Assembly: GCA_903828645.1 (NCBI GenBank)
Contig: CAIKNA010000256.1
Coordinates: 1 to 32,588 of the forward strand
DNA from: an uncultured Bacteroidales bacterium
Lineage (GTDB): Bacteria > Bacteroidota > Bacteroidia > Bacteroidales > FEN-979
Direction of reading: 5' to 3'
DNA length: 32,588 bases
Part shown: positions 14,402 through 32,588 of the stretch, piece by piece
How positions within the stretch are numbered: the stretch's first letter is position 1
Layout: each line of letters opens with the position of its first letter
Made by a program: the position numbers and the translations under genes
The notes under the pieces: generated by a model
The model's database searches: none
Told to the model about the DNA's origin: nothing
The model's input: only the letters and a program-made list of their open reading frames with translations

Positions 14402-14415
14402 AGCCCCGCTGCATG

Positions 14416-14467: not shown

Positions 14468-14568
14468 GCCGCATATGAACGGCTGTCACCACCTTGTGAA
14501 ACTGAGTCGATTCCGTTCATGATAACCGCGGTGCCCCCGCCCTGATGTTTTCACCCGGTTTGATGATC

Positions 14569-14960: not shown

Positions 14961-15023
14961 CAGATGTCGGAATCCTGGGGACGATCGTTGGTGGCAAAAT
15001 CGTTTACGAAAGAAACCAGGAGG

Positions 15024-17447: not shown

Positions 17448-17602
17448 CTTTAAAGAATTTAGGATAATAAATTTAAGCTGCAAAAATCACCAATTATTTA
17501 ACAGGACGTCCGGCCGACAGGTTCAGATTCCTGAATTCGCACCTCTTCTGGTCCACTTTTCCCCAGGATGAAGCACTGAACAGAACTGCTTCTGTAAAGC
17601 AG

Positions 17603-17635
17603 TTTCATGCACCGGGCATGAATTGCGTAACTTTG
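17603..17635 (+). promoter_or_regulatory. Promoter with a 19-bp palindrome, AraC-type regulator gene
   Basis: TAACTTTG at 17628-17635 is a perfect -7 box, and TTTC at 17603-17606 with a 21-bp spacer is a near match to the -33 TTTG. Between them sits a perfect inverted repeat (TTCATGC, 5-bp spacer, GCATGAA) at 17604-17622. A palindrome in the spacer is a classic operator position, so autoregulation or control by another dimeric factor is plausible. The TTG at 17623 lies inside the promoter and cannot be the start codon of this transcript. Confidence 0.55.
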
Positions 17636-17652
17636 CACCAAAGGAAACCTGT

Positions 17653-18912
17653 ATGGATTCGCTCATTACCACATTATACGCGCTCCCGGTATATCAATGC
17701 CTGGTGCTGGCAATCCTGCTCTTTATCTCAAGGGCGGAATCAGGAGGACCTTCCAGGATTATTTTCGGGTTGTTTAACCTGTTGCTGGCCGTTTATTTCA
17801 CATTCAACCTGCTTTACAGGGTTAAGGCCTTCGATGCGATTGCATTCCTTTATTACCCTATCCTCCCGGTCATCCTGTGCTTCATACCCACCTTCTATCT
17901 CTATATCCTGACGGTCACCCGTCACAGGTACCGGTTTACGGCGCGGCATGCACTCCATTTTCTCCCGGCGGCATCGATCCTCCTGCTGAACACTCCATTC
18001 CTGTTCCTGGCATCCGTCCAGAAAACCGATTACCTCTCCTTTTCTTTCGGAACCCGCCCGGCAGGACCGCTGATCATCTACCTTTTCACCGTATACATTG
18101 CCGCCATATACGTAGTCATCAATATCCAGCTGGTGTTTTACCTTGTCCTGACGATCAGGCAGTACCGAAGGCATCTCGAATACATTGAAAACCATTATTC
18201 TTCCACCGAGCATATCGATACGGCCTGGACCAGGTCGGTCATGGTCTCATTCCTGGTCTTCTTCATTATCAACAATTTGCTTTATGTAATCGGGTTCAGG
18301 CAGCACTACGCGGCCGGTATCCTTTATACCGTTTCGATGCTGGGTATCACCCTGTTTGCCGGTGTGCGCGGTCTGAACCAGAAGGAAATCGCCGTTGGCG
18401 TTCCGGAAATTGCAGGAAATGAAGGAACCCGGCCTGTGCCCCCTGGGGAGGCAGGATCAATCCCGGCTGACCTGCCCTCTGAAGCGGGGGCGCCAGCAAA
18501 CACGACGATCAAATACCAGGGGTCAACCATGACGGATGAACAGAAAAGGTTGCTGGCTGAGAAGCTGGAGTCGCTTATGCGTGATGAAAAGGTCTTCACC
18601 CGGAGCAACCTGACCATTGACCACCTGGCGCAAAGGCTGGAGACGAACAGCAAATACATATCCCAGATCATCAACGAGTTTTATCAACAGAATTACTTTC
18701 ATTACGTGAACTCTTACCGAGTTAATGAAGCCAAACTGCTCCTGACCAACCCGGCAAACGATAAATATTCGATCTTGGGGATTTCCAACATGGCCGGTTT
18801 CGCGTCAAAATCGACCTTTAACACCGCCTTCAGGAAATTCACAGGAATAACGCCGAGTGAATTCAGGGACCAGCGTGATGTTAACAGGTTGCCGGAACAG
18901 GAAAGGAGATGA
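17653..18912 (+). CDS. AraC-family regulator with N-terminal membrane domain
   Basis: The ATG at 17653, preceded by AAAGGAAA, gives 419 residues. The N-terminal ~235 residues hold six or seven hydrophobic helices (LVLAILLFI, IIFGLFNLLLAVYFTF, ILPVILCFIPTFYLYIL, AASILLLNTPFLFLA, IIYLFTVYIAAIYVV, SFLVFFIINNLLYVIGF, GILYTVSMLGITLFAGV). A low-complexity linker leads to a double helix-turn-helix at about 310-405 (LTIDHLAQRLETNSKYISQI ... SILGISNMAGFASKSTFNTA, FRKFTGITPSEFR). This is the Bacteroidota membrane-bound AraC type, expected to sense a signal at the inner membrane and bind DNA from there. The ligand is unknown. It is divergent from the BACON protein gene, its most likely target, and its stop lies 171 bp before the tRNA-like repeat. 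Confidence 0.85.
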   Translation: MDSLITTLYALPVYQCLVLAILLFISRAESGGPSRIIFGLFNLLLAVYFTFNLLYRVKAFDAIAFLYYPILPVILCFIPTFYLYILTVTRHRYRFTARHALHFLPAASILLLNTPFLFLASVQKTDYLSFSFGTRPAGPLIIYLFTVYIAAIYVVINIQLVFYLVLTIRQYRRHLEYIENHYSSTEHIDTAWTRSVMVSFLVFFIINNLLYVIGFRQHYAAGILYTVSMLGITLFAGVRGLNQKEIAVGVPEIAGNEGTRPVPPGEAGSIPADLPSEAGAPANTTIKYQGSTMTDEQKRLLAEKLESLMRDEKVFTRSNLTIDHLAQRLETNSKYISQIINEFYQQNYFHYVNSYRVNEAKLLLTNPANDKYSILGISNMAGFASKSTFNTAFRKFTGITPSEFRDQRDVNRLPEQERR

Positions 18913-19035
18913 CTTTGACTGTCATACGATCACTTATGCTGCGCCGGTCGCCAGGGAGAGAAAATTCCAGGCAAAGGACCATCAAAACTGGCCTAAGGAA
19001 TAATCCTCCGGGGCCCAAACAGCAACTTTTAACAG

Positions 19036-19101
19036 CAAAAAGCCCTGAACATTTTAATTTTCAATGCTTTTCTATGATTTTGATGTGGCATCGACTGGAA
19101 T
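19036..19101 (-). repeat. tRNA-Phe 3'-end copy plus degenerate terminator (putative attachment site)
   Basis: TGTGGCATCGACTGGAAT at 19084-19101 is identical to 30470-30487, which covers the last 16 bases of tRNA-Phe plus two flanking bases. The resemblance continues outward: six more matching bases (19076-19081), then a degenerate copy of the tRNA terminator whose CCCTGAAC lies 41 bp from the core, exactly the spacing at the tRNA itself. Only the 3' fragment is present, so it is not a functional tRNA. Such a duplicated tRNA end is what site-specific integration into a tRNA leaves at the far end of the insertion. The surrounding gap (18913-19425) has no credible gene. Confidence 0.7.
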
Positions 19102-19213
19102 AATCCGCATACTATTCAGAACTATTCAGTTGAAACAGTGATTCTGTTATCATGTTGGTCCAGTTGTGATTAACCCTTTCCTCATTAATGTAAAACCAAC
19201 ACGGAACTACTCG

Positions 19214-19355
19214 GAACTACTTATTTTGTTGCCCAAATCCTGTCCAATCCGTTTTTTCTTTAGATTTGCTAAAACCGAAATTACTTCCCGTGGAACCCTA
19301 CTTCAAAATTCGAGACGATCACTCTGATACTAAAGGCCTTTACCAGATACAACTG
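19214..19355. repeat. 142-bp dispersed repeat, copy 2
   Basis: This is the gap-free partner of 8117-8258. It begins 113 bp inside the tRNA-like repeat. Substitutions are spread through it, with longer identical runs at the start and around 19308-19319. It contains stops in the frames examined on both strands. Position and conservation suggest a former element end, possibly part of an integrase gene or its control region; I cannot prove which. Confidence 0.7.
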
Positions 19356-19425
19356 GTCTACTTTAACAAAAGCAGGGTTTTGCGCTTGGATGGAGGTGTT
19401 AAGTGTTAAGCAAGCAAAAAAAGCA

Positions 19426-20187
19426 TTAAAAGTGAAACCCAATCTGAATCAGGTATCTGAACCCTACGCTTAACAAATCCAGTTTCCCATTCGATTTGAA
19501 TGACCTGTTTATTACGAAATCCCCGACCATCGGGTATCTCTCTTTAATTTTATTATATATATTTTCATGCAGTTCTTTTAATTTTTCCAGATTTACATTA
19601 CCGGTTATATCAATACCTCCCCCATAATAACTGACAGCAGGGCCGATCAGTACAAAATCAAGCGTAAACCTCTTCCAGAAAATAAACTGGTAACCCAGTT
19701 CAACGCCGACATTAAAAACATAAATGTTTCCTTTAACTGCCCCTGCACTGTCAAGAGATGTATGCAGTACATCGATATTGTTTTTAAAGTGGTAGCCGTA
19801 ATAGCTTGCAAAAGGGGCAATGTAAACCCCGTCGGGTATTGGCCTGGCATTTCGCTTGCATGGGTAAAACCTGTATTCAAGGGCCAGGTTCATCCCATAT
19901 TTTTCACGACTTGTAATGGCTACAAGGTTTGCGATGTTGTCTTTAAAAAGTTGTGGGAATTCCAGATAGCCAATGGTCAGGGCGATCGTTTGTTTCGGTC
20001 CCAACACGCGTTCATAGCTGAGCGTGATGTTCTTTGTACTCCACAACAACATTGGTGTGGGATTGAATTTGATCACATTCTTATGATAGGGCTGTTTGTA
20101 GCCAAATGTGGTATCATTCTTTGTGGCTGAAACCAGGAATGGCATTACAGCCATCAGTGCCAGTAAAATTCTGCTTTTGTTTTTCAA
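19426..20187 (-). CDS. Outer-membrane beta-barrel protein, possibly DUF3575-like
   Basis: The 253-residue product has a signal peptide (ILLALMAVMPFLVSA). Early strands are NVIKFNPTPMLLWSTKNITLSYERVL, and later ones GMNLALEYRFYPCK, GVYIAPFASYYGYHF, VFNVGVELGYQFIFWKRFTLDF. It ends in a terminal aromatic strand (LIQIGFHF). 'KFNP..L......SYER.L' is typical of small Bacteroidota barrels such as the DUF3575 group, so the family is a guess while the fold is well supported. It is separated from the aquaporin gene by 232 bp and a terminator, so it is probably transcribed alone. No good -7 box was found upstream. Confidence 0.75.
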   Translation of the reverse strand: MKNKSRILLALMAVMPFLVSATKNDTTFGYKQPYHKNVIKFNPTPMLLWSTKNITLSYERVLGPKQTIALTIGYLEFPQLFKDNIANLVAITSREKYGMNLALEYRFYPCKRNARPIPDGVYIAPFASYYGYHFKNNIDVLHTSLDSAGAVKGNIYVFNVGVELGYQFIFWKRFTLDFVLIGPAVSYYGGGIDITGNVNLEKLKELHENIYNKIKERYPMVGDFVINRSFKSNGKLDLLSVGFRYLIQIGFHF

Positions 20188-20365
20188 ATTGAATTACTTT
20201 AATAAGGTGTAATAATTCACTTAATATTCTTTCAAAAATCCTTTATGATCAATTGGGCAAATAACAAACATTCTATTATTTCATTTCCATATCCCGAATG
20301 ACCGGAGACATTTTTTTGATCATTTTGTCCTGAATTTTTCTGAGGCAATTTTCTTTGCTCTTGCG

Positions 20366-20411
20366 GAAAACAATGGAGCAGGATTTAATATCAATCATAT
20401 CCTGCTCCATT
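20366..20411 (-). terminator. Intrinsic terminator at the end of the sulfatase-aquaporin gene run
   Basis: A perfect 13-bp stem (arms 20372-20384 and 20399-20411) with a 14-nt loop lies 8 bp past the aquaporin stop codon. On the minus strand it is followed by TGTTTT. It marks the likely 3' end of the transcript that includes aquaporin Z and separates it from the barrel gene at 19426. Confidence 0.75.
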
Positions 20412-20419
20412 TGCAATTT

Positions 20420-21127
20420 TTAATCCGCGTCTGACGAATTGCCAAACCAATTATAAATAACTGCACCGATGATTCCACCCGCAATCGGAGCCAGCCAGAA
20501 TAACCATAGTTGTCCGATTGCCCAACCACCTGCAAACAAAGCAACACCAGTGCTTCTTGCCGGGTTTACCGAAGTATTGGTAACCGGAATACTGATCAGG
20601 TGAATTAGCGTCAGAGCCAACCCAATCGCCAATGGACCAAAACCGGCCGGAGCTTTTTTATCCGTTGCACCCATGATAACGATGAGAAACATGGCTGTCA
20701 GCACGATTTCTGCAATCAGGGCAGAAAGCAACGAATACCCACCGGGTGAATGCTCTCCATAACCGTTCGAAGCAAATCCGCCGGAGGTGCTGAAACCTTC
20801 TTTACCACTGGCAATCAGGTATAAAATAAGGCCTGCAAAGATTGCACCCAGAACCTGTGCCGCGATATAGGGTAACAGGTTTTTGGCTTCAAACCTTTTA
20901 CCGGCCCAGAGACCAATGGAAATGGCGGGATTGAAATGCCCGCCTGATATATGCCCTACTGCATATGCCATCGTCACCACGGTCAGGCCAAATGCCAGCG
21001 ATACGCCAACAAAACCAATACCCAGCCCGGGAAATGCAGCGGATATTACCGCGCTGCCGCAGCCGCCGAAGACCAGCCAGAAAGTTCCGAAAAATTCAGC
21101 AGTTGTTTTTTTAAAGATTCCGTTCAT
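20420..21127 (-). CDS. aqpZ: Aquaporin Z, water channel of the inner membrane
   Basis: This 235-residue MIP-family protein has six transmembrane helices and both NPA loops (HFNPAIS at about N66, SVNPARSTG at about N188). Selectivity residues fit a water channel rather than a glycerol facilitator: Phe46, His176, Thr185 and Arg191 correspond to the Phe/His/Thr/Arg filter of E. coli AqpZ, and [12 protein letters not shown] is nearly the E. coli sequence. The length matches the family (about 230). It passes water rapidly and helps in osmotic adjustment. It lies 25 bp after the barrel gene at 21153 on the same strand, so it is probably co-transcribed, and it is the last gene before a terminator. 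Its presence behind sulfatases is unexpected. Confidence 0.95.
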
Positions 21128-21152
21128 TTTGGATGATTTTAGAGATTAATAC

Positions 21153-21788
21153 CTATTTTAGAAAAGTATAATACAAACCGATGTTAAAAACGGAACCGGT
21201 ACCTACCGTATTCACACCAAAATCGAAGGCGGAAACTGTATTTGTTTTTTTACCGTCATTGTCTTTATATCCAATCGAACTAAATCCTGCCAATCCATAC
21301 TGGCCAACGGCAGTAAACCTTGGAGAAAATGCATAGGCAACACCAATTCCAATGCGGGTACCAAATCCTGAATGAGTTCCTTTCGTTTCAACTTCCGATC
21401 CTGTGGAATAACTGTAATACTTATCGGTCCCGGAATAGTAATTCAGGTAAAGCCCGGTAAAAGCGCTGAAACTTTCAGTGATTTTGAAGAAATACCTCAC
21501 GTACAATGTCGGGCTGAAGGAGATCGATTTATAGTCCTTTTTGTCCCCGATTTTTCCTGAACTGCCACTTAACCCTGTAACAAATCCCAATTGAACCGAG
21601 TTCGTCAAAAAAGTGCCAAATTCAGGATTGACATCCCAGTTTGATTTAACCGTTTTAACGCCCGAACTGTCAAGTTTATCAGATGAAGCGCCATAACCGG
21701 CTAAACCGCCGATGTACCAGGAACCTTTTTGAGCATTGGCTATCATTACAAAAGCCACAAATGAAATTAGTAAAATTGTCTTTCTCAT
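21153..21788 (-). CDS. Outer-membrane beta-barrel protein (OMP_b-brl type)
   Basis: The 211-residue product has a signal peptide (ILLISFVAFVMIANAQ, then KGSWYIGGLAGYG). The rest is amphipathic strands: VQLGFVTGLSGSSG, ISFSPTLYVRYFFKI, FSAFTGLYLNYYSG, GTRIGIGVAYAFSPRFTAVGQ. It ends in a terminal strand GSVFNIGLYYTFLK with an aromatic near the C-terminus. It is a small barrel of the outer-membrane-protein-A-like size class; its role is unknown. It precedes aqpZ by 25 bp and follows the DUF502 gene by 101 bp. No strong promoter box was seen in that 101-bp gap, so it may belong to the sulfatase transcript or start its own. Confidence 0.75.
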   Translation of the reverse strand: MRKTILLISFVAFVMIANAQKGSWYIGGLAGYGASSDKLDSSGVKTVKSNWDVNPEFGTFLTNSVQLGFVTGLSGSSGKIGDKKDYKSISFSPTLYVRYFFKITESFSAFTGLYLNYYSGTDKYYSYSTGSEVETKGTHSGFGTRIGIGVAYAFSPRFTAVGQYGLAGFSSIGYKDNDGKKTNTVSAFDFGVNTVGTGSVFNIGLYYTFLK

Positions 21789-21889
21789 GTTTTTAATTTT
21801 TAGGTTAATTGATTTGGTTGATAAAATGATTGATTTATTGATAAAACAAAGACATCCGGTTCATAAACATATCATCAGGTAAACATGCC

Positions 21890-22471
21890 TCATGATGATA
21901 ATCCCTGGACCTTTATCCCTTTACCCGAAGTCAGCAAGGCTGTTTTTAATTCTTTTTGGGTCATATCCAGTTTTGTTATATTCAAGGTATCCACAACCCA
22001 CACTTCACCGTAATCTGTGTCGGGTGTCGATGGTAAAAACACTGTAGATCTTTCATCAACCGTGCTTATTAAGAATCCAGGTTTCCATGCACCGGCTATT
22101 TCAACCAGCACAGGCTCGCGCAAATCCTGCCCGGGTTGCAATTTGGCCATCATCTTAGCCTTATGTTTACTGTAGTTAGGCACATACACCAGAACCGTAT
22201 TTTCAATCCATTCTTTCCCACGTGTAACAACCGAAAACCTTACAAGGAGCCCACAGAGGTAAAATATTACCATCAATAATACAGCGGTAATGATGGGTGC
22301 TACTTCCAGCCCATCCACGCCCTTCAAACCCAGCAGTTCTGTAAATTTATGTCCAAACCCATACATGAAACCGTACACTTTCTGAACAATTGCCAGAAGC
22401 ACAAAAGCAGGCAGGAATAAGACAACTCCGGCAATAAATGTATTCTTGACATTTTTAATGACCTCTTTCAT
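21890..22471 (-). CDS. DUF502 family membrane protein
   Basis: This 193-residue protein has two transmembrane helices (TFIAGVVLFLPAFVLLAIV, about 11-29; IITAVLLMVIFYLCGLLVRF, about 60-79). A cytosolic or periplasmic domain follows with the family landmarks WKPGFLISTVD and VFLPSTPDTDYGEVWVV. The length is usual for DUF502. Its function is unknown; members occur widely in bacteria and some plants as predicted inner-membrane proteins. It lies 88 bp after the third sulfatase on the same strand. Nothing in the sequence ties it to sulfate chemistry, and the placement may simply be operon hitch-hiking. Confidence 0.85.
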   Translation of the reverse strand: MKEVIKNVKNTFIAGVVLFLPAFVLLAIVQKVYGFMYGFGHKFTELLGLKGVDGLEVAPIITAVLLMVIFYLCGLLVRFSVVTRGKEWIENTVLVYVPNYSKHKAKMMAKLQPGQDLREPVLVEIAGAWKPGFLISTVDERSTVFLPSTPDTDYGEVWVVDTLNITKLDMTQKELKTALLTSGKGIKVQGLSS

Positions 22472-22559
22472 AATTCTAATGTTATTGAATCCGATCGCAT
22501 TTTCGACTTTTAATTTCCATTGTTTCCCTGTGTGCCGGGAATCGGAATTACCGGTAAAA

Positions 22560-24944
22560 TCATTTTTTAAGGTACGAAATATTCGTTATCCCGATCGTTC
22601 CGTTGAAAGCAAACGGTGCATTGTCGTAATAATCAATCGACACAGGAGAATCCAGATCGATGCCGATGTCAAAGGTTGCATTCGAGGTGAAGTGGAGTGA
22701 CATGGCAGCCGGAACCTTGCCCTGGCCAACTACTTCGCCATTAACCTTCAACGTAATATCCATCGGTCCCCCGATGTTTGCAGTCAGCTTTGATTCGACC
22801 TCGATCTTCACCTTGCCCTGTGGCAGTTTGCCATTGGATTTTATCTTTGTACGCTGAACCTCGAACAGGTTGAATTCATAATTCAGGAAACCATCTTTCA
22901 CATAGCAGGTAATTCCGCCGGAAAAACCGGCAAGCGCATACAGGACACCGTTGGCTTTTGCAGGCACATTCACCTCCATGGTCACCAGGCTGCTTACTTT
23001 CCCAAGCTTAGGGGCTGCCGATTCGGGCATACGGGTTATGGGTTCATCAAAATTCCATTCGGTGAAGGAGGATGCAGGTGCATCTTCCGGGTGGAACATC
23101 GCAGTGGACCACATTCCGCCACCAATAGGAAGATTTTTATTTTTGGCAGATTCAACGATGAAAAGAGCTTTCATCTCCTCAAGTTTCCCAGGATTTGAAG
23201 CAGCCAGATCGTTTGCCTGGCTCCAATCCTCATCAATGTTGTAGAGTTCCCATTTATCGGTAAGCGGCGACCACTCCCTGATGCCTTTCGGCATCCCTCC
23301 CACCCAGGGTTCGCGCGGGCCCGGAGCGCTGGCGAACCAGCCGTCGTGGTATATGCCGCGGCTGGCCATGATGTCAAAGAACTGGGTTTCCCGTGTACCC
23401 TTTACTTTTGGATCGCCAAACGAATAGACCATGCTAACCCCGTCGATCGCATCCTGTTCGAATCCATTGACAACACGCGGGGGTGTGATTTTCGTCAGTT
23501 CGTAAATTGTAGGGACTATGTCAATTACATGGTGAAACTGCGGACGGGGAGCAGGATCTGCCTTGATGCGATCGGGCCAGGAAACGGCCATCGGCTGACG
23601 AATCCCCCCGAAATAGGCTCCCATCAGTTTAGTGCCTTTATAAGGCGTGCTGCCTGCCCATGCCCACCCGGCGTTATACATATTGTCGGTCTTTGGGCCG
23701 CCCAGGGCTGCAAGACCTCCGAGTTCATTTAATGCAGTGATGTGCTGGGAAATTGTGGTCGGGATTCCATTCTGCGCCAGCTGCTCGCTGATGGTGCCAT
23801 TTAGTCCTTCAGAAGAGGAGCCATTGTCGCCCCAGATGTAGAATATCAGTGTATTATTCAACTTCCCTTCCTTTTCAATCTCATCGATGATGCGGCCGGC
23901 ATTGTAATCGGCATGTTCTGCAAATCCGGCGAAAACCTCCATCAGGCGGCGCTGAAATGGTTTCTCCGATTCTGGGATTGACTCCCATGCAGCCATGGAG
24001 GCAGGACGAGGTGTGAGTTGTGCGTTCTGAGGGATCCAGCCTTTGGCTTTGGCTCGTTCAAAGGTCCGCTCCCGGTATTTATCCCAGCCGTCATCGAACT
24101 TGCCTTTATATTTATCCGCCCACTCCTGCATGACCTGGTGCGGGCCATGAGCAGCACCAGGAGCCCAATACATGAAGAAGGGCTTGTCTGGCGCATAAGC
24201 TTTCTGTTCGCGCAGCCATTTGATGGCATCGTCGGCGATATCCTCCGTGAGATGATAATACTTATGGCCGCCCGATGAATGCGGTGTTTCAACATAGGTG
24301 GTATTGCGCACCAGGGTGGGTTCGTACTGCGAAGCTTCACCGGCAAGGAATCCATAGAAATACTCAAATCCATAACCGGTCGGCCAATATTCAAAGGGTC
24401 CCTTGTCCGTGATCTGTTCTTCGGGTGTGTTGTGCCATTTCCCCCAGGCCCCTGTATTGTAGCCATAATCTTTCAGCACTTCGGCAACGGTTGCTGACGA
24501 TTTGGGAATAGTTCCGCTGAAACCGTCAAAATCATTTGCAATCGCTGAGATTTGTCCGTTGCACACTTTGGTATGATTTCGCCCTGTAAGCAGTGAAGCA
24601 CGTGTGGGTGAACACATAGCTGTAGAGTGAAATCGATTGTATGAAATCCCCATGTTCGATATACGATCAAGGGTAGGAGTATTGACCTCGCCACCATAAG
24701 TCGTGGGAGTACCGGGTCCTACATCGTCCATCAGGATGATCAGGATGTTCGGGGCTCCGTCGGCCAATCGTTTTGGATCCACCCGTTTCTTATAAGTGGA
24801 ACTCTCCATGGTCAGCCCTGCCCTACTCCCTGACGGGGTGGGTGTAAAAGGCAAGACCTCCTGGGCAGTTCCAGCACTTGAAATGGCAGCAAGTAGACCA
24901 ATAACCAAGCTTTTAAATAAGGGAACGCTGCTTGTTTTTTTCAT
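22560..24944 (-). CDS. Secreted arylsulfatase-type sulfatase with C-terminal beta domain (paralogue of 26539 gene)
   Basis: This 794-residue type I sulfatase has a signal peptide (LVIGLLAAISSAGTAQ). Metal ligands are in APNILIILMDDVGPG (Asp73, Asp74). The formylglycine motif is CSPTR (Cys111, Arg115) followed by LLTGRNHT, and GKWH and WGDNGSS supply further active-site residues. The catalytic part covers about 60-560. The last ~150 residues form a beta-rich extension (LEMEVNV-like region ending FNGTIGITNISYLKK). Length and motifs fit the Pseudomonas arylsulfatase-like subfamily. The enzyme hydrolyses sulfate esters after Cys is oxidised to formylglycine. It is the third of three sulfatases in a run with a 23-bp gap to the previous one, and it is clearly related to the one at 26539. 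The substrate is unknown. Confidence 0.92.
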   Translation of the reverse strand: MKKTSSVPLFKSLVIGLLAAISSAGTAQEVLPFTPTPSGSRAGLTMESSTYKKRVDPKRLADGAPNILIILMDDVGPGTPTTYGGEVNTPTLDRISNMGISYNRFHSTAMCSPTRASLLTGRNHTKVCNGQISAIANDFDGFSGTIPKSSATVAEVLKDYGYNTGAWGKWHNTPEEQITDKGPFEYWPTGYGFEYFYGFLAGEASQYEPTLVRNTTYVETPHSSGGHKYYHLTEDIADDAIKWLREQKAYAPDKPFFMYWAPGAAHGPHQVMQEWADKYKGKFDDGWDKYRERTFERAKAKGWIPQNAQLTPRPASMAAWESIPESEKPFQRRLMEVFAGFAEHADYNAGRIIDEIEKEGKLNNTLIFYIWGDNGSSSEGLNGTISEQLAQNGIPTTISQHITALNELGGLAALGGPKTDNMYNAGWAWAGSTPYKGTKLMGAYFGGIRQPMAVSWPDRIKADPAPRPQFHHVIDIVPTIYELTKITPPRVVNGFEQDAIDGVSMVYSFGDPKVKGTRETQFFDIMASRGIYHDGWFASAPGPREPWVGGMPKGIREWSPLTDKWELYNIDEDWSQANDLAASNPGKLEEMKALFIVESAKNKNLPIGGGMWSTAMFHPEDAPASSFTEWNFDEPITRMPESAAPKLGKVSSLVTMEVNVPAKANGVLYALAGFSGGITCYVKDGFLNYEFNLFEVQRTKIKSNGKLPQGKVKIEVESKLTANIGGPMDITLKVNGEVVGQGKVPAAMSLHFTSNATFDIGIDLDSPVSIDYYDNAPFAFNGTIGITNISYLKK

Positions 24945-24967
24945 GATAAAAATTTATCCGACTAAAA

Positions 24968-26500
24968 TTATTCTCCCGGATTTTGCATCTGTTGCATCAT
25001 TCCCTGTATCATTTTGGTGAAATCGCCCGAAAGAGGCGTTTGCCGTGGAGGGAAATCCTTGAATGTCATAAGGTGTTTGCCCAACAGCTCGAGCATGGGG
25101 GCGTAAACCCAACCTTTATGCTCCGACATCTGGCGTGTAATGTCACTGTCAACCTGTCTTTCATACGGGTCAAGCAGGAGATTAACAAGAATGGGCCTTC
25201 CGTAACCCTGTAACTGACCATCCCATTTTCCGTTCCGCTTGGAGGCGAAGATCATTTTGTATTGTTTGTATCTTACTGCAGTAAGGTTTGCTTCATCATA
25301 GTAGAAGTAAAAGTCTCTTTTCGAAGCTGATTTCCCCAGAAGAAAATCGGTCTGATCAACTCCTTCAAGTAACACTTTAAATGACTTTCCGTTGTAGGTT
25401 GCTCCATTTTTAAGTTTCTCAGCTACGGAGGGCTCCCCGGCTGCAGATGCCAGCGTCGTGAACCAATCCTCCATGGATACAATCTCGCTGCTTTGCCGGC
25501 CTGCCTCCACTTTGCCCGGCCAGCGTACAAGGCAGGGAACCCTGACGCCTCCTTCCCAGGTGGTACCTTTATCACCTTTAAAAGGCGTGGTTCCGCCTTC
25601 AGGCCACATGTACTGGTATGGGCCATTGTCGGTCGTATAGATGACTATTGTATTGTGGGTAAGTTTCAGGCTATCCAGCAAAGAAAGCAACTGCCCGACT
25701 TCGAGATCGTGTTCTGCCAGGGCATCACCATACACATCATCACCGTTATGCGATGCGCGTGAAAGTCCGGTATATTTTTCCTGAAGGTGCTGGAAGACAT
25801 GTAATTTTGACGGATTGTACCAGACAAAGAAAGGCTTGTCTTCTTTGGATTTTCTTTTAATGTAATCGGTTGTTTTTGCAAGGATCTCCTCATCAAATTT
25901 CTTCATACGTTCAGTAGTCAGCGGCCCTTCATCAACGGTAGGGCCATTGGCAGTGCCTGACACCACCCCGCGGGGATCATATTTTTTCTTGAATCCCGGG
26001 GAATCAGGCCTGTCCTTGTCTTCAGGGTCCTCATTGGCATTCAGATGATATAGGTTACCAAAATATTCATCAAATCCGTGGCGATGGGGCATGAATTTCT
26101 CCAGATCGCCCAAATGATTTTTACCAAATTGGGCTGTATTATAGCCAAGCGTTTTCAGTACCTCGGCGAGAGAAGGGTCTTCTGGTTGCAACCCGATATC
26201 GGTTCCGGCAATGCCAACAGTGGTCAACCCTGTTCTGACCGGAAGTTGCCCTGTGATAAATGCCGCTCTGCCGGCTGTGCAGCTTGCCTGGGCATAAAAT
26301 GATGTCAGTTTCATTCCCTCCTTTGCAAGGCGGTCAATGTTGGGTGTCGGAACACCAGTGATATCTCCGCCATAGCAGCCAAGATTGGTCCAGCCAACAT
26401 CGTCACCCATGATAACAATAATGTTCGGTTTTTTTTGTCCGAAGGCGACTGTCGCAAGGATCATCAGCAGGCATGCGAACACTAAATTCTTAATTTTCAT
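24968..26500 (-). CDS. Secreted sulfatase with CTAGR formylglycine motif
   Basis: From the ATG at 26500 the protein has 510 residues and a standard signal peptide (MKIKNLVFACLLMILATVAFGQ). The longer frame from 26527 adds nine polar residues ahead of it. Metal-binding Asp33-Asp34 are in IVIMGDDVGW. The activation motif is CTAGR (Cys74, Arg78) within SCTAGRAAFITGQLPVR, a CxAxR variant of the usual CxPxR. GKNHLGD, HVFQHLQEKYTGL and YTTDNGPYQYMWPEGG complete the pocket. The size is normal for a single-domain arylsulfatase. The C-terminal 35 residues (FPPRQTPLSGDFTKMIQGMM) are typical of this group. It sits between two sulfatases of a different subtype, with 38 bp and 23 bp gaps, indicating one operon. 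The different pocket suggests a different sulfate position or substrate. Confidence 0.92.
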   Translation of the reverse strand: MKIKNLVFACLLMILATVAFGQKKPNIIVIMGDDVGWTNLGCYGGDITGVPTPNIDRLAKEGMKLTSFYAQASCTAGRAAFITGQLPVRTGLTTVGIAGTDIGLQPEDPSLAEVLKTLGYNTAQFGKNHLGDLEKFMPHRHGFDEYFGNLYHLNANEDPEDKDRPDSPGFKKKYDPRGVVSGTANGPTVDEGPLTTERMKKFDEEILAKTTDYIKRKSKEDKPFFVWYNPSKLHVFQHLQEKYTGLSRASHNGDDVYGDALAEHDLEVGQLLSLLDSLKLTHNTIVIYTTDNGPYQYMWPEGGTTPFKGDKGTTWEGGVRVPCLVRWPGKVEAGRQSSEIVSMEDWFTTLASAAGEPSVAEKLKNGATYNGKSFKVLLEGVDQTDFLLGKSASKRDFYFYYDEANLTAVRYKQYKMIFASKRNGKWDGQLQGYGRPILVNLLLDPYERQVDSDITRQMSEHKGWVYAPMLELLGKHLMTFKDFPPRQTPLSGDFTKMIQGMMQQMQNPGE

Positions 26501-26538
26501 AAGGGAGATATTTATTTTATGTTTCATGAGGTTGTTTA

Positions 26539-28911
26539 TCAGAGAAGCGAAATGTACACTTTATTGATTTTCCCGTTGAATTTAAAAGGTGCTTTCTTTT
26601 GATAGCGAAGGGATACCGGTGAACCCAGGTCAACACCCACGTCAAAGCTTTCACTGGCAGTGAAGGCAGCAGGAACGGTGCGTTTCACCTCTCCTTTGGC
26701 GGATTCTTTGCCATCGATGCTGATCACGATGAATGCAGGTGCCCCCGGTTGCGCAATGGTTGTAACAATTTCAACCTGGTGTTTACCGGGCGACAGTTTT
26801 TCTTTGGGCTCAACGGTGTAATTTTCAATAAGCATCATGTTGTATTCGTAGATCAGCTTTCCATTTTCCATGAAGCAGGTCAGTCCGCCGCCGGAACCGC
26901 CTAATGCATAAAGCACACCGGATGCATTGGCGCCAACTTCCATATCAATCTCCACTTTGTTGCTTTTCTTGCCCAGACCGGGAGCACTGAATTCCGGCAT
27001 TCGGGTAGTATTTTGGTCAAACACCCATGATTTGTATGGAGAGGCAATTACATCTTCCGGATGCAGCCTAAGCCAGATTCCGGCACCGATGGGAAAGTCC
27101 TGATTTTCCTTTGCCTGCTCAAGGAAAAGTGCCTGCATTTTTTTCAACCTTTCGGGCTCTTTCGAGGCAAGGTCATTGGCCTGGGAAAAATCTTCTTTCA
27201 GGTTATACAGTTCCCAGACATCTTTATCTGAATCCCACTTATCCAACCCTTTTTGCCCTGGCAACCAAGGGTAAAGCGGACCAAATGTGCAGGCAAACCA
27301 GCCGTCGCTGTATATACCCCTGCTGCCATTGTTGTCGAAGAACTGCGTCTTGGGAGCAGGAATTGCTTTTGGGTTGTCAAAAGTGTATTTCATGCTGATG
27401 CCATCCATCGGTATTTGCTTAAAACCATTCACCACTTGTGGTGGTCTAATACCCAGGATGTCATAAATGGTAGGGGTTATATCATTCACATGATGAAACT
27501 GGGACCGTGGAGTTTTATCGGGCCTGATCCCTTTGGGCCAGCTGATTACCATTGGATTCCGTGTTCCCCCGAAATGGGATGCGATCAATTTGGTGTATTT
27601 GAATGGTGTGTTGCCGGCCCAGGCCCAACCTGCGTGATACATGTTATCGGTGACGTGGCCGCCAATGGCATCGAGTCCTCCTATTTTTTGAAGCGCTGCC
27701 AGTTGTTGCTGTATGGTATTGGGGATACCATTTTGTGCAAGGAGTTCGCTGATGGAACCATTTTGTCCTTCGGCACTGGATCCGTTATCGCCCCATATAT
27801 AGATGACAATGGTGTTATCCTTTTGTCCCATTGCATCAACCGCATCAAGCACCCTTCCTACCTGGACATCGGCATGTTCAACAAAACCTGCAAACACCTC
27901 CATCAAACGCTCCTGGAATGGTCTTTCCGGTTCAGGGATGCTCTCCCAGGAGGCCATGGTTTTATCGCGCGGGGTGAGTTGGGTGTTGGCAGGGATCCAT
28001 TCCATCTCTTTCTGGCGTTTGAATACCCTTTCGCGATAGGCATCCCAGCCATCATTAAACTTGCCCTTGTATTTGTCGGCCCATTCTTTGAATATCTGGT
28101 GCGGACCATGCCCGGCACCCGGTGCGAAATATAGGAAAAATGGTTTATCTGCGGCATATGCGCGATGCTGGTTGAGCCATGATATGGCATGATCGGCAAG
28201 GTCGGTACTCAGGTGATATTTTTCATCATGCGGCGGTTCGACCTGGTTATAGTTTTCAACAAGGCGCGGTTCCCATTGAGAGGTTTCACCCGCAAGAAAA
28301 CCATAAAAGTGTTCGAACCCATAGGCGTTAGGCCAGTAATCAAATGGGCCCTGTGAGGTGGTTTGGTTGGCAGGGGTATTGTGCCACTTGCCGAATGCCG
28401 ATGTACTGTACCCATAATCTTTTAAAACTTCGGCAACGGTTGCCGCTTCCTTGGGAATTATACCAGTATACCCGTCCCAGTCAACCGCCCGTTCAGCAAT
28501 CGTACCTGACCCGACACGGGTATGATTCCGGCCGGTAAGCAGGGCTGCCCTGGTTGGTGAACAGATCGCAGTGGTGTGAAATTCATTGTAAGCAATGCCC
28601 TCACTGGCCAGTTTTGTCAGCGTGGGAGTATTGATCTCCCCCCCGAAAGTGGATGGCGTTCCAAACCCCACATCATCCATTAAAACAATAATAATGTTGG
28701 GAGCATCCTTGCGAAGATGACCGGGCTGGGTCCGGCGCGTATGTTTGCTGTCTGCCAGTGTTTGTCCGGCTATGCTGGCTGATGGCGCAGAGACGAAGGG
28801 CAGGATATTCCCGCTGTCATTATTCTGTGTTGCAGGTTGCTTATCAGGTGACTGGCATGCGAACAATCCAAAGAATCCAATGACAGCCCAGAACGTTTTT
28901 AATGTTTTCAT
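26539..28911 (-). CDS. Sulfatase lipoprotein, first gene of the sulfatase run
   Basis: This 790-residue enzyme starts with a lipoprotein signal (FWAVIGFFGLFAC, lipid on Cys19). The next residues are Ser-Pro-Asp-Lys, without the strongly acidic stretch of a Bacteroidota surface-export signal, so an inner-leaflet outer-membrane location is as likely. The core matches the 22560 enzyme: Asp79-Asp80 (IVLMDDVGFG), formylglycine Cys117 in CSPTR with Arg121, GKWH, and IWGDNGSS. A C-terminal beta extension ends with FNGKINKVYISLL. Its near-identity in layout to the 22560 product points to gene duplication, with different anchoring. As first gene it follows a likely promoter at 28976 and is divergent from the AraC regulator. 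Confidence 0.92.
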   Translation of the reverse strand: MKTLKTFWAVIGFFGLFACQSPDKQPATQNNDSGNILPFVSAPSASIAGQTLADSKHTRRTQPGHLRKDAPNIIIVLMDDVGFGTPSTFGGEINTPTLTKLASEGIAYNEFHTTAICSPTRAALLTGRNHTRVGSGTIAERAVDWDGYTGIIPKEAATVAEVLKDYGYSTSAFGKWHNTPANQTTSQGPFDYWPNAYGFEHFYGFLAGETSQWEPRLVENYNQVEPPHDEKYHLSTDLADHAISWLNQHRAYAADKPFFLYFAPGAGHGPHQIFKEWADKYKGKFNDGWDAYRERVFKRQKEMEWIPANTQLTPRDKTMASWESIPEPERPFQERLMEVFAGFVEHADVQVGRVLDAVDAMGQKDNTIVIYIWGDNGSSAEGQNGSISELLAQNGIPNTIQQQLAALQKIGGLDAIGGHVTDNMYHAGWAWAGNTPFKYTKLIASHFGGTRNPMVISWPKGIRPDKTPRSQFHHVNDITPTIYDILGIRPPQVVNGFKQIPMDGISMKYTFDNPKAIPAPKTQFFDNNGSRGIYSDGWFACTFGPLYPWLPGQKGLDKWDSDKDVWELYNLKEDFSQANDLASKEPERLKKMQALFLEQAKENQDFPIGAGIWLRLHPEDVIASPYKSWVFDQNTTRMPEFSAPGLGKKSNKVEIDMEVGANASGVLYALGGSGGGLTCFMENGKLIYEYNMMLIENYTVEPKEKLSPGKHQVEIVTTIAQPGAPAFIVISIDGKESAKGEVKRTVPAAFTASESFDVGVDLGSPVSLRYQKKAPFKFNGKINKVYISLL

Positions 28912-28975
28912 GGTGGTTTGGTTTATGATTTAATCTCGTTCCAAGAATCGTTGAATACCATTGTTCAGGCGGTGG

Positions 28976-28983
28976 CAAAAATA
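28976..28983 (-). promoter_or_regulatory. Likely -7 box for the sulfatase operon
   Basis: On the minus strand this reads TATTTTTG, a full match to TAnnTTTG. It would give a leader of about 57 nt before the sulfatase ATG at 28911. No good -33 TTTG lies at the expected distance, which is common at promoters that need an activator, such as the divergent AraC protein. The 248-bp divergent region holds no other recognised site. Confidence 0.45.
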
Positions 28984-29138
28984 ATTCAAAACATATTCAT
29001 TATGGAATCATTCTAAACAGCAAATACTGTCCTTTATCACACAGAAGTGTGAATATTTTTTATATTGTTGATATACAACCTTATATGAACTCTCCAATTA
29101 ATATAAATGTTGTGTTAAATTATCATTCAGGATTAATT

Positions 29139-29146
29139 TATCTTTG
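29139..29146 (+). promoter_or_regulatory. -7 box for the AraC regulator gene at 29160
   Basis: TATCTTTG matches TAnnTTTG perfectly. It lies only 13 bp before the ATG at 29160, so the leader would be about 7 nt, near leaderless. This argues that the 37 codons upstream (frame open from 29049) are not translated from this promoter. The -33 region is weak. Confidence 0.5.
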
Positions 29147-29159
29147 TATTAACAAATGG

Positions 29160-30293
29160 ATGATCATGAATTTCTCATTTTCGGAGTTGTTTAGTTATTT
29201 TGGGGGTACCCTGGGTTTGATCCTGATGTTTGTGATCCTTACGTTCATGAAAGGGAAGGCAACAGTTAAAAACAGCCTGGTGTTGTTTCTTCTGTTCGGG
29301 TCATTGATTGTTATCATTGGTGCCATCACATACTCCGGAAAGGTATTGTCATTACCTTTTCTTTTACGGATTGACAGTCCTCTTCATTACCTGATTGGTC
29401 CTGTCTGTTTTTTTTATACCCTGGCATCATTCAAATCCGACTTTCGGTTCAGGAAGATTCAATTGTTGAACCTACTCCCGTTTTTTATTAACATAATAGA
29501 ATTCATACCATTCTATTTCAGCAGTTCTTCTTATAAAATTGACTATTACAACCAACTGAATTCCGCCGGCTCAGTGATATTACCATGGCATTATCTTTTT
29601 AAGACCATCAGCACCAGCGGTTATTTCATTGTGCAACTATATGTGTTTTACAGGTACAAGTCAAATAAAGGTATAACATCCACCCCACCGGCTTACCTGG
29701 TATCCTGGTTTTTGGTCTTCTTTGCCGGACAGGCTGTGATGCTGGGAGGCTTAATCATTGACCAGTTCACCTCAGTACATTTATTTGATGATCCTTATCG
29801 TTACTCTATTACCATTGAAACTTTTTACCTTTATGTCGTATCAATTGCACTGCTGTTTTATCCCAGCATATTGTACGGAAATCTTTCAGCTGAAATCACT
29901 GCCAAAGACAAATATGTTGGTTCAACACTGACGAACAATGATAAAGTTGCCATCCTTGAAAACTTCGTTGCTTACATGCAAAGTGACAGCAAACCATTTC
30001 TTCGCCCCAAGTTATCCTTGATAGAGGTGGCCGGTCTGCTCGGGCTGAGCACCAAGCACCTTTCACAGGTAATCAATGAGCGAACTACCTTAAATTTTAA
30101 TGAATACCTCAATTCACTGCGGGTTGAGGAAGCTAAAAAGATATTATCCTCCCCTGAATTTATGAAACTGACCATTGACGCGATTGCCTTAAAGGCAGGG
30201 TTTAACTCCAAATCACCCTTTTATGCGGCATTTAAGCAATTTACCGGGATGACCCCCAAGAAGTTTGTTGATTTGCAGAAAGCAAAAACTTAA
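29160..30293 (+). CDS. AraC-family regulator with N-terminal membrane domain, next to sulfatases
   Basis: The ATG at 29160 gives 377 residues. The second ATG at 29166 is also possible; the frame from 29049 would put the start upstream of the -7 box. About 1-235 contains six or seven hydrophobic helices (LGLILMFVILTFM, LVLFLLFGSLIVIIGA, LIGPVCFFYTLASF, LLPFFINIIEFIPFYF, SWFLVFFAGQAVMLGGLII, FYLYVVSIALLFYPSIL). About 270-375 is the paired helix-turn-helix (LSLIEVAGLLGLSTKHLSQV; LTIDAIALKAGFNSKSPFYA; FKQFTGMTPKKF). It should sense a membrane-level or periplasmic cue and control the divergent sulfatase run. Its layout parallels the regulator at 17653, and its stop lies 177 bp before the tRNA-Phe end. 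Confidence 0.85.
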   Translation: MIMNFSFSELFSYFGGTLGLILMFVILTFMKGKATVKNSLVLFLLFGSLIVIIGAITYSGKVLSLPFLLRIDSPLHYLIGPVCFFYTLASFKSDFRFRKIQLLNLLPFFINIIEFIPFYFSSSSYKIDYYNQLNSAGSVILPWHYLFKTISTSGYFIVQLYVFYRYKSNKGITSTPPAYLVSWFLVFFAGQAVMLGGLIIDQFTSVHLFDDPYRYSITIETFYLYVVSIALLFYPSILYGNLSAEITAKDKYVGSTLTNNDKVAILENFVAYMQSDSKPFLRPKLSLIEVAGLLGLSTKHLSQVINERTTLNFNEYLNSLRVEEAKKILSSPEFMKLTIDAIALKAGFNSKSPFYAAFKQFTGMTPKKFVDLQKAKT

Positions 30294-30417
30294 TCCATGG
30301 TAATTTATATCAAAACGATCGTGTGTTTTGTGGATAAAGACTTTCTGAAAATGACTTGTGTTCTGGGTAGTTCCAAGTCGTTCTGCATTAAAACTGGCCC
30401 AAAACTTGCCCAATTTG

Positions 30418-30453
30418 AAAAAGAAAAACCCCGAACGTTTTGTGGTTCAGGGT
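30418..30453 (-). terminator. Intrinsic terminator of tRNA-Phe
   Basis: On the minus strand a 9-bp stem (arms 30445-30453 and 30428-30436, one U-G pair) with an 8-nt loop is followed by a long T-rich run (TTTTCTTTTT). It starts 18 bp past the tRNA 3' end, so it is the natural terminator of that gene. Related but altered copies occur at 19043 and 8064. Confidence 0.75.
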
Positions 30454-30471
30454 TCTAACTTGATTTTTCTG

Positions 30472-30544
<73 letters not shown>

Positions 30545-30728
30545 ATCCTCAAATGAAGTTGCAAAAATAATACATTTTTTCAAATTTTCAAATATAAATA
30601 TGGACGGCGAAAACTCCTGCCGGGCAAAGAGCCGGGGAAAGCCTATTTTATCATCACGGTGCCGGTTCCAAGCGAAGATTATTTATATTTGTCGGATGCA
30701 ATCTCTTTCCAATCTGAATATTTCATAA

Positions 30729-31946
30729 ATGAGGCCATCCTTTTTTAAGCGCACAAAAAGAGCAATTAAACGGGAATTTCGCCGGATAAGAGATGAACAC
30801 CGGAGTACCGGCCGGCGCCGCAGAAAGCCTCCGCTCTCCGTCAGGCTCCGGCATTGGGTAAAAAAAATGAAGGAGCGGAGAACCAGGCCCGAAAGCAGGC
30901 GACCCTCAAAATCACACCTTCCGCCACTGTCAAAAAGAATCACTCACTACCTTCATCTGCAGCGGACGAAATATGCCGTGGTGTTTTCTTCGGAATATTT
31001 GATCATCGCCCTCAATTCGACCGTTTTATACCTCCTCTCCTTTTTCCTGATCCACTTCCTTACCCACCTGGTTACCGGCATGGCAGCATGGTTCTGCGAA
31101 ATCAGTACAACCCTCCATTACACTTTTATCGATTTTCACATCCGCTACTGGAACTGGACCGAGGAGATGGTCATCCTGGTCTTTTCCATCCCTGCAATTT
31201 TCACCCTCCTGATCACCCTGGCATCATCCCTCGCATTTGCCGGGCGGATTAAGATGCCCGCCATTTTCAAACGGTTGCCCTATCTGACCAAAAAACAACG
31301 GTACAAACAAAAGCAACGGCAACGGCAGAAGGATCTTGATTTGCAGGTGCAACGGCTGAATAATAAAACAGGGCCTCCTGAAAAACAGAAACTAAAACAC
31401 CGGATACCCTGGACGGTAAGATTATTTTTACTCTGGACAATCTATCACAGCACCACCTATTTTTTCAGCGGGATGCTCTTCTCTTTTCTTTTTCACCGGA
31501 GATTCGGTTATGTTATATGGTATGCGTTTAATGCCTATGTTTTTGATGTACTCTTTTCCATCGTGGCATTCCTGCTGATGGTTATCATCGGGTACGCATT
31601 CGCGGTGCAGTTTTTTTATTCGGCAAGGATGTACCTGAATGATCTGAACGTCAGGAACAGGATGCCGTTTGTGATCAGCCAGGCAATTTTCCCATTCATC
31701 ATCGGGACAATTCTTACCATTGCCCTGCAAATCCCGGTCTTTGATCCTTCTCTCATTTTGCTGAATTTTTCAATGTTTTTTCTTTTACTGCCTCTTCCTT
31801 CCCGGGCTGCCTATTTCGACAGCCTCCATTTTGACAACCGTGAAAAACCGGTAAAAATTTATTGGAAATGGCTGGTGTGGTCTGCTGTTATTTTAGTTTC
31901 AATTATCATCGCATTGAAAACCGGGATCCAGATCAGGCGGCCTTAG
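30729..31946 (+). CDS. Unknown multi-TM membrane protein with very basic N-terminus
   Basis: This 405-residue protein is not recognised. Its first ~80 residues are extremely rich in Arg and Lys (KRTKRAIKREFRRIRDEHRS, GRRRRKPPLSVRLRHWVKKM), with pI clearly high, and would face the cytoplasm. About eight hydrophobic helices follow (YLIIALNSTVLYLLSFFLI; MVILVFSIPAIFTLLITLAS; WTVRLFLLWTIYHSTTYFFS; VFDVLFSIVAFLLMVIIGYA; AIFPFIIGTILTIALQIPVF; LILLNFSMFFLLLPLP; WLVWSAVILVSIIIALKTG). A basic cytosolic loop at about 180-225 (QRYKQKQRQRQKDLDLQVQ) separates them. 'IYHSTTYF' and 'YFDSLHFD' could be motifs, but no family is assigned. coaX begins 18 bp downstream on the same strand, so the two may be co-transcribed. 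The gene lies on the core side of tRNA-Phe. Confidence 0.8.
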   Translation: MRPSFFKRTKRAIKREFRRIRDEHRSTGRRRRKPPLSVRLRHWVKKMKERRTRPESRRPSKSHLPPLSKRITHYLHLQRTKYAVVFSSEYLIIALNSTVLYLLSFFLIHFLTHLVTGMAAWFCEISTTLHYTFIDFHIRYWNWTEEMVILVFSIPAIFTLLITLASSLAFAGRIKMPAIFKRLPYLTKKQRYKQKQRQRQKDLDLQVQRLNNKTGPPEKQKLKHRIPWTVRLFLLWTIYHSTTYFFSGMLFSFLFHRRFGYVIWYAFNAYVFDVLFSIVAFLLMVIIGYAFAVQFFYSARMYLNDLNVRNRMPFVISQAIFPFIIGTILTIALQIPVFDPSLILLNFSMFFLLLPLPSRAAYFDSLHFDNREKPVKIYWKWLVWSAVILVSIIIALKTGIQIRRP

Positions 31947-31964
31947 CAACCCAACCCCCAACCC

Positions 31965-32588
31965 ATGAACCTCATACTCGACTTCGGGAACACACATAAA
32001 AAACTGGCGCTGTACGATGCCGGGGGGTTGCAACTGGTTCAGTTTCATCCCGTCATCACCCGGGAGCTGATCGCGCAACTGGTGGAGGCGCATCCGGCGA
32101 TCACCTCCTGTATATTATCCTCCGTGGTAAAGCATTCCGATGATATTCCGGTCTACCTGCGGCAAAAAATGTTTTTTATTGACCTGGATGAACATACCCC
32201 GGTCCCGGTCACCAACAGGTACGATACGAAAAGCTCGCTGGGGAAAGACCGGCTTGCCGCCGCAGTTGCCGGTGCCATGACATTCCCGGGCGAAAATGTC
32301 CTGGTAGTGAATGCCGGGACAGCCCTGACGTTCGATTTTGTAACCGGGAAAGGGGAATACCTCGGCGGATCGATCTCCCCGGGAATGCAGATGCGGTTCA
32401 ACGCCTTGCATACTTTTACCGGCAAGCTTCCGTTATTATCGTACCAAGATCCCGCCGGACTGGTGGGGACAAATACCCGGATGAGCATTTTGTCGGGGGT
32501 GATCAATGGAATGGTGGCTGAAATTGAGGGCATTTCTCATGGTTACCAGGAAATTTACCCGGGTTTGAAAATCATCCTCAGCGGCGGG
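31965..32588 (+). CDS. coaX: Type III pantothenate kinase (3' end outside window)
   Basis: The frame from ATG 31965 is open to the last base (208 codons), so the C-terminus, probably about 35 residues, is missing. Landmarks of CoaX (ASKHA fold) are present: the N-terminal phosphate loop LDFGNTHKKLALYD, SSLGKDRLAAAVAGA, and VVNAGTALTFDFVTG, then GGSISPGMQMRFNALHTFTG and TNTRMSILSGVINGM. The enzyme phosphorylates pantothenate, the first step of coenzyme A synthesis, in the cytoplasm; type III enzymes are poorly inhibited by CoA. In many CoaX sequences the second nucleotide motif reads DxGTAxTxD; here its first residue is Asn (NAGTALTFD), a point worth checking. The start is 18 bp after the stop of the upstream gene. 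Confidence 0.95.
   Translation, partial: MNLILDFGNTHKKLALYDAGGLQLVQFHPVITRELIAQLVEAHPAITSCILSSVVKHSDDIPVYLRQKMFFIDLDEHTPVPVTNRYDTKSSLGKDRLAAAVAGAMTFPGENVLVVNAGTALTFDFVTGKGEYLGGSISPGMQMRFNALHTFTGKLPLLSYQDPAGLVGTNTRMSILSGVINGMVAEIEGISHGYQEIYPGLKIILSGG

Follow-up and report, generated by a model that had tools for sequence, protein, structure and literature searches.

Integron arrays are built from head-to-tail units in a single orientation, with diverse cargo that includes toxin-antitoxin pairs and with the recombinase encoded outside the unit. The original work on cis-mobilizable elements (CIMEs) is reportedly that of Pavlovic et al. 2004. CIMEs and their accretion at a shared attachment (att) site are defined in the available portion of PMC5704250. 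Dehalococcoides islands, as described in the accessible part of PMC3146451, lie in tandem downstream of one RNA gene, ssrA, with 20-bp repeats of the ssrA 3' end between them; 15 have no integration module, 16 have one, and respiration genes are carried as cargo. For freshwater Methylophilaceae, excerpts of PMC10872708 describe additive flexible genomic islands in which repeated tRNA ends mark added blocks. The tycheposons described in PMC10872708 contain the tyrosine recombinase gene xerD. Here we report on a tRNA-Phe locus of an uncultured Bacteroidales bacterium (GTDB lineage Bacteroidales; FEN-979), in a stretch of 32,588 nucleotides (positions 1 to 32,588 of contig CAIKNA010000256.1, assembly GCA_903828645.1) that is called the window throughout.

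With a probability of about 0.82, the 11.4-kb sulfatase-bearing segment beside this tRNA gene is one unit in a tandem accretion of CIME-like, integrase-deleted elements at the tRNA-Phe 3' end. The window holds this segment (unit A), an older unit B and more beyond. Insertion at the tRNA-Phe 3' end is supported by a junction type common to nine others, by arm-type repeats and an integrase remnant, by a variable 3' flank beside a conserved 5' flank, and by joined flanks that fit two relatives better (G013 and G003; relatives' genomes are cited by G number and their contigs by C number). The units are called integrase-deleted because the integrase in the examined copies is cut back to its first codons. 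A first-pass annotation had already read the segment as an insertion into the tRNA gene; that part is well supported, but the single island it pictured is one unit of a tandem series.

A duplicated tRNA-Phe end bounds unit A

The features that define unit A are these.

30471-30544, minus strand: tRNA-Phe (GAA), the integration target (ARAGORN; Rfam RF00005 at 30472-30544)
30470-30487, plus strand: core (att) copy within the intact tRNA-Phe 3' end (exact 18-mer match)
19084-19101, plus strand: displaced core, the unit B/unit A junction (18-mer match, junction search, junction alignment)
19102-30487, no strand: unit A, an integrase-less, sulfatase-bearing element that the two core copies delimit
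19102-19403, plus strand: left end (LE) of unit A, with arm-type repeats at 19229-19248, TAGATTTG and the 5' part of a decayed integrase gene (LE probe, alignment)
19257-19406, plus strand: N-terminal integrase remnant of 50 codons followed by a stop, SLDLLKPKLLPVEPYFKIRDDHSDTKGLYQIQLVYFNKSRVLRLDGGVKC (matches the intact G081 integrase at 58% over 36 residues)
30335-30469, plus strand: right end (RE) of unit A, with an arm-type repeat pair at 30395-30414 and a terminator-like hairpin (RE probe, arm pattern, folding)
about 30425-30454, minus strand: terminator-like hairpin for tRNA-Phe (-18.3 kcal/mol, z -4.1)

The core 18-mer (TGTGGCATCGACTGGAAT, plus strand) lies at 19084-19101 and 30470-30487, confirming the exact duplication of the tRNA 3' end reported in the first pass. 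These are its only two copies in the whole 5,104,608-base assembly (reversed control, 0), which disposes of the concern that it might recur at many unrelated sites. The shared terminator-like flank at equal spacing was likewise borne out: the first bases of CCCTGAAC (19043) and CCCCGAAC (30429) both precede their core by 41 bp, and flank plus core are 73% identical over 64 bp between the two copies. The longest exact plus-strand repeats in the window are a 23-mer at 8117/19214 and then the 18-mer at 19084/30470, and both proved to be parts of one element family. The window itself shows a tandem arrangement at one target, with junctions at 8104 (eroded), 19084 and 30470, and the repeat noted earlier is one junction in this longer series. 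Composition gave no clear signal of an island, the GC content being 0.452 in 19102-30470 against 0.492 (8109-19083), 0.439 (1-8104) and 0.478 (30545-32588), and was dropped as a test.

In the manner of a tRNA-targeted island, unit A has an intact tRNA at one end and a displaced 3' fragment at the other, in direct orientation; where such an island would have an integrase gene near one end, there is just an N-terminal remnant. As in a CIME, att-type ends are kept and none of the annotated unit A genes is for integration or transfer. The LE runs from TTGCCCAAATCCTGTCCAAT at 19229 through TAGATTTG, which we take to be a putative Bacteroidetes-type -7 box, to the first integrase codons, and the RE consists of TGGCCCAAAACTTGCCCAAT at 30395 plus the hairpin. 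The arm pair (≤1 mismatch) has three matches in the own genome, at 8132, 19229 and 30395; every one is a single-mismatch match on the plus strand at a unit end. Over 43 genomes it was found at 27 places in nine genomes (reversed control, 0). In 33 of 35 relatives' loci the 55 nt downstream of tRNA-Phe fold at -13.5 kcal/mol or lower, and the units therefore seem to bring the tRNA its terminator; the shuffle controls for folding cover the window.

Unit B and the rest of the stack

The older part of the stack has the following features.

about 8109-19101, no strand: unit B, an older element with an eroded left boundary, carrying secreted Por-tail/BACON/PKD proteins and an AraC regulator (LE homologue, Pfam)
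8117-8291, plus strand: LE of unit B, with arm repeats at 8132-8151 and an integrase remnant with stops (79% to the unit A LE)
19022-19083, plus strand: RE of unit B, whose terminator hairpin is weak and has probably decayed (-9.1 kcal/mol, z -1.3; matched by 27 of 200 shuffles)
17623-18912, plus strand: AraC-family regulator of unit B (Pfam)
8104-8108, plus strand: TGTGG stub of an eroded core at the unit B left junction (sequence)
about 8062-8103, no strand: terminator-like hairpin before the TGTGG stub (-23.8 kcal/mol, z -6.0)
5508-8021, plus strand: mechanosensitive channel, the last gene before the eroded junction (homology)

With its core included, the unit B RE matches the tRNA flanks of G013 and G003 at 84% and 83% identity, respectively. 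Core erosion grows with distance from the tRNA, as judged from two points only (18/18 bases at 19084, 5 bp at 8104). The region of the mechanosensitive channel (5224-8025) has an 88% copy in G014, and an intact core/LE junction follows that copy within about 0.1 kb, so this cargo has another neighbour there. About 0.5 kb separates tRNA-Phe in G017 from the genes of window 1-4351, with 4352-30338 absent from that locus. On contig G018:C1 (L159), relatives of the window 1-4306 genes are interleaved with LE relics and, judged by eye, a 1263-aa sensor-kinase-like open reading frame (ORF); this is perhaps an older, scrambled stack.

Integrase remnants

The statement that no integrase remains in the segment was inexact, since the LE of unit A keeps about 45 codons of a tyrosine-integrase N-terminus. 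The remnant at 19257-19406 matches the N-terminus of a 447-aa integrase of G081 (58% over 36 residues, E 5e-5), and the corresponding remnant of unit B at 8160-8297 contains two stops. Pfam gave no match to the 50-residue remnant, whose identity is taken from comparison with intact integrases; tblastn with two of these found no further integrase parts in the window. The remnant search yielded 19 matches in 8 of 100 genomes (own included), 16 of them in the genus at 15 places, one being split in two. The longest open frame among these 16 is 143 aa. Outside the genus, matches lie in open frames of 451 (G081), 415 (G033) and 40 (G035) residues. The two intact relatives (447 aa in G081, 402 aa in G033) both have repeated motifs just 5' of the start; Phage_int_SAM_5 is over the Pfam cut-off and Phage_integrase below it in G081, and both are over it in G033. 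The G081 gene adjoins two tRNA-Leu genes. A single truncation point shared by all copies was considered and dropped, because one G012 copy retains about 30 more integrase codons than the window copy.

The same junction in other species

Thirty-eight contig sequences, picked for left-end, right-end or tRNA-Phe matches, were surveyed for a core matching at 16 or 17 of its 17 bases and running straight into AATCCSCATAC or a similar sequence. This junction occurs at ten places: one in the window, four in G012, one in G013, three in G014 and one in G018. Mean pairwise identity across the ten aligned junctions is 0.96 in the core, 0.88-0.89 in the arms and about 0.3 from 19405 on, the conservation of the LE being gone after about 19403. 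A scan of genome_contigs (84,980 species genomes, from which the own genome may be left out) returned nine stretches, all from four metagenome-assembled genomes (MAGs) of related Bacteroidales/Bacteroidetes: Kiruna2_bin-1621, Loc080925-6m_bin-0522, Loclat_bin-08999 and a LacPavin MAG. The record names suggest lake samples as their source. No viral contig matched the junction pattern, and no plasmid or phage matched the left end.

Left ends of other kinds adjoin three displaced cores (G013C52, G002C103 and G001C110), so there is more than one left-end type. A second type, a core variant followed by TTTCGAAC(A/G)ATT, was seen in G013:C52 and G002:C103 (L158, L163). Cargo of the other stacks includes an MNT/HEPN pair, a YoeB toxin, DUF2442, DUF4143 and other AAA ATPases (Pfam), as well as kinases and response regulators judged by eye. 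MNT/HEPN-type pairs stand directly behind LEs in G014, G012 and G013 (L095:1876-2566, L090, L093; Pfam was run on the G014 pair only).

Flanks of tRNA-Phe in relatives

An insertion at this site predicts relatives with an empty site, for which the first-pass annotation had proposed aligning tRNA-Phe loci; the outcome was mixed. With unit A removed, the joined flanks score better than the actual window in G013 (239 versus 196 bits) and G003 (226 versus 203), and at the tRNA loci of G017 and G016 the actual window sequence aligns better. To the left of tRNA-Phe, G013 carries other genes further on and G003 just 102 bp of sequence. No exact empty site, with the tRNA joined to the sequence or genes left of 19036, was found: unit B genes adjoin the tRNA in 0 of the 35 loci in a blastn search of the window, several of which have <300 bp on that side. 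G017:C53 is among these 35 loci and outside the 15 used next.

Across 15 loci of the genus, translated matches are shared by 66 of 105 pairs on the 5' (right) side of the tRNA and by 8 of 105 on its 3' (left) side, several of the latter being short (about 40 residues). These counts are rough because flanks are short in some loci, the left sequence being <1 kb in four and the right sequence 1 bp in one.

Other arrangements were seen at this tRNA gene. In G022 and G026, from two other genera of the family (L050, L062), an excisionase-type helix-turn-helix-like ORF (by eye) lies within about 0.2 kb of tRNA-Phe together with other repeat motifs, and the site may therefore attract unrelated elements too. 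G020 (L049) has a second copy of the last 40 tRNA-Phe bases plus 24 flank bases (positions 1518 and 3339, the locus being turned to put the tRNA on the minus strand). This copy is 1.8 kb away from the tRNA, and the interval holds a 514-aa open frame.

Proposed mechanism and its weak points

With each insertion, the incoming unit would lodge next to the tRNA, on the near side of the older units, and a 17-18-bp tRNA fragment would be left behind, so that the stack presumably grows from the tRNA side. On the left, a unit has a conserved LE made of the core junction, arm-type repeats, a promoter and the first codons of a tyrosine integrase; free cargo follows, and then an RE with arm-type repeats and a terminator hairpin serving the tRNA. 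Junctions, ends and remnants are observed, as are the tandem order of the window and the occurrence of common ends in different species. The insertions were probably made by a tyrosine integrase, and once their own was lost, at least some units would have been moved by a helper, either an integrase working in trans or one supplied in cis by an adjacent element. In other species, too, the stacks presumably stand at tRNA-Phe.

Several points weigh against this account. The LE probe gave 26 matches in only 6 of the 19 genomes of the genus, though the RE probe (core included) matched 14 of 19, some only around the core. No tRNA was found on the contigs of the nine other-species junctions, so their placement at tRNA-Phe rests on the core sequence. 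The RE of unit B is without the arm pair, a possible sign that this unit is composite. The searches identified no helper integrase: the remnant search (100 genomes including the own) found no intact close relative in the genus, and an order-wide search of 393 genomes found, besides the own genome, only G081 (60% over 37 residues). The joined-flank comparison favours an empty site in two of four relatives, which is suggestive rather than decisive, and left flanks are short in several genomes of the synteny test. The higher identity of the ends could partly reflect functional sites, and all genomes compared are fragmented MAGs.

Possible spread between species and alternative explanations

Eight LE copies of at least 235 bp (in G012, G013, G014 and G018) are 79-90% identical to the LE of unit A, and shorter copies 73% and up; DNA on the 5' side of the tRNA in these four species is 69-74% identical to the window. 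An ATPase cassette is 95.4% identical between G014 and G013 (1447 bp) and 97.2% between G001 and G013 (1434 bp). The tRNA flanks of G013 and G014 are 71% identical; G001 provides no such flank for comparison, its sole tRNA-Phe match being weak. By tblastn, no integrase was found on the contigs of this cassette, the left side of the G014 copy running off its contig. A 95% match between G013 and G014 in a cassette with no detectable integrase, against 71% for their tRNA flanks, suggests that units spread after integrase loss. This comparison is our main argument for such movement, which we infer, with recombination through shared ends as a rival, and it makes the earlier view that the element would be fixed doubtful, cassettes of this kind being 95-97% identical between genomes.

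AAA_14/DUF4143 and related ATPase genes occur in the cassettes of several species, at up to 97% over >1.4 kb (L161:2651-5111; L166:785-1915; L093; L095), and an 89% relative lies within 0.3 kb of tRNA-Phe in G019, of another genus. Contigs G012:C116 and G013:C53 are 100% identical over 12,656 bp in MAGs assigned to different species (L160, L157), through either misbinning or very recent transfer. G017:C53 equals a contig of G025, of another genus, at 99.8% over 11 kb (L042, L048) and is probably misbinned. G017:C53 and the G012:C116/G013:C53 pair were left out of the transfer argument and are still in the raw LE-probe, RE-probe and arm-pattern counts.

The alternative that survives best is that these are ordinary islands, each of which came with its own integrase, lost it in place and is now an immobile remnant. 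Remnant lengths and stops differ, as independent decay predicts, searches of the genus turned up no intact integrase of this type, and the 8104 junction is eroded. We nevertheless hold this to be possible rather than probable, since 0 of the 16 in-genus remnant matches has an open frame longer than 143 aa and the ATPase cassette of G013 and G014 points to spread after the loss. Cargo could instead have been exchanged without site-specific recombination, by homologous recombination between the end repeats that units share, as might follow natural transformation. Such exchange does happen, to judge from fused RE-LE joints without a core (G012C74 at about 18565, G013C12 at about 7236 and G013C26 at about 3373, the two joints of the G013 genome being nearly identical to each other), which fit exchange inside the arm repeats. 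As the general explanation it is unlikely: the cores are tRNA 3' ends, core/LE joints are conserved and an intact tRNA stands at one end in the window, which is a site-specific footprint, and homologous exchange can reshuffle a stack but cannot start one. An assembly or binning artefact is highly improbable, for although the genomes are MAGs and the two contig pairs just described are common to different bins, the same junction type recurs in five separate assemblies at 78-90% identity between one copy and the others, which misassembly is not expected to give, and two units and the tRNA all lie on the one window contig.

Cargo of unit A

Between its ends, unit A carries the following genes.

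29049-30293, plus strand: AraC-family regulator with HTH_18 (Pfam)
26539-28911, minus strand: sulfatase 1, PF00884 (Pfam)
24968-26527, minus strand: sulfatase 2, PF00884 (Pfam)
22560-24944, minus strand: sulfatase 3, PF00884, a paralogue of sulfatase 1 (Pfam; 66% nucleotide identity over 1331 bp)
21890-22471, minus strand: DUF502-like protein (under the Pfam cut-off)
21153-21788, minus strand: outer-membrane beta-barrel protein (Pfam)
20420-21127, minus strand: aquaporin Z (annotation)
19426-20187, minus strand: DUF3575 protein (Pfam)

The sulfatase cargo is real, with PF00884 in three genes, and the predicted gain of a sulfated-substrate trait through unit A is plausible. The AraC-family regulators of units A and B are 40% identical over 137 residues of the C-terminal part. 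A search for the whole cargo block in 61 genomes including the own gave, outside the window itself, only single-gene or weak matches, mainly to the DUF3575 gene (67-75%), and was non-exhaustive because four candidates were scored per genome.

Comparison with known systems

As far as the consulted portions of the sources go, the Dehalococcoides ssrA islands and CIMEs are the closest precedents. Like CIMEs, the tRNA-Phe units no longer have integration and transfer genes but retain att sites, and they stand in tandem at the end of a target gene; unlike the CIMEs in the available portion of PMC5704250, they span several species with one LE type and just the first integrase codons, and a partner integrative and conjugative element or integrative and mobilizable element was not found. 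The Dehalococcoides islands share the tandem position at an RNA gene and the integrase-less members, but in the accessible text of PMC3146451 they depend on a serine recombinase, DsiB, and an ssrA (tmRNA) target, whereas our units have a tyrosine-integrase remnant and a tRNA-Phe target, and no complete integration module was found. The additive islands and tycheposons, in the excerpts of PMC10872708, belong to another phylum; xerD is described for the tycheposons, and those excerpts mention no conserved element ends with arm repeats. What may be new, set against the consulted parts of these sources, is a multi-species family in which no integrase-bearing member was found. In the open-licence literature, no paper was found that combines Bacteroidetes, tRNA-Phe, an integrase and an attachment site, which leaves other print possible.

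A wider reading, which we offer tentatively, is a genus-wide cassette system anchored at tRNA-Phe, in which species would exchange units that have standard ends and no integrase, and a recombinase supplied in trans would stack them at that one site. Its units might have an LE of about 300 bp and an RE of about 150 bp with their own tRNA terminator, and cargo would range from a DUF2442 unit of about 0.8 kb to the 11-kb sulfatase operon. If units do move without their own integrase, the tRNA gene would be a plug-in site that adds whole operons in standard packages to uncultured bacteria, among them sulfatases, sensors, secreted proteins, toxin-antitoxin pairs and ATPases. Searching with the conserved ends is a simple way to list accessory operons in such genomes and to ask on which recombinase a stack of these helpless elements depends. 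Integron arrays share the single orientation and the diverse cargo, an external recombinase being presumed for the tRNA-Phe units; they differ from these units, whose sites consist of a tRNA 3' end accompanied by arm-type repeats and whose length reaches 11 kb. If true, the cassette system would be the tyrosine-integrase, tRNA-based counterpart of integron arrays.

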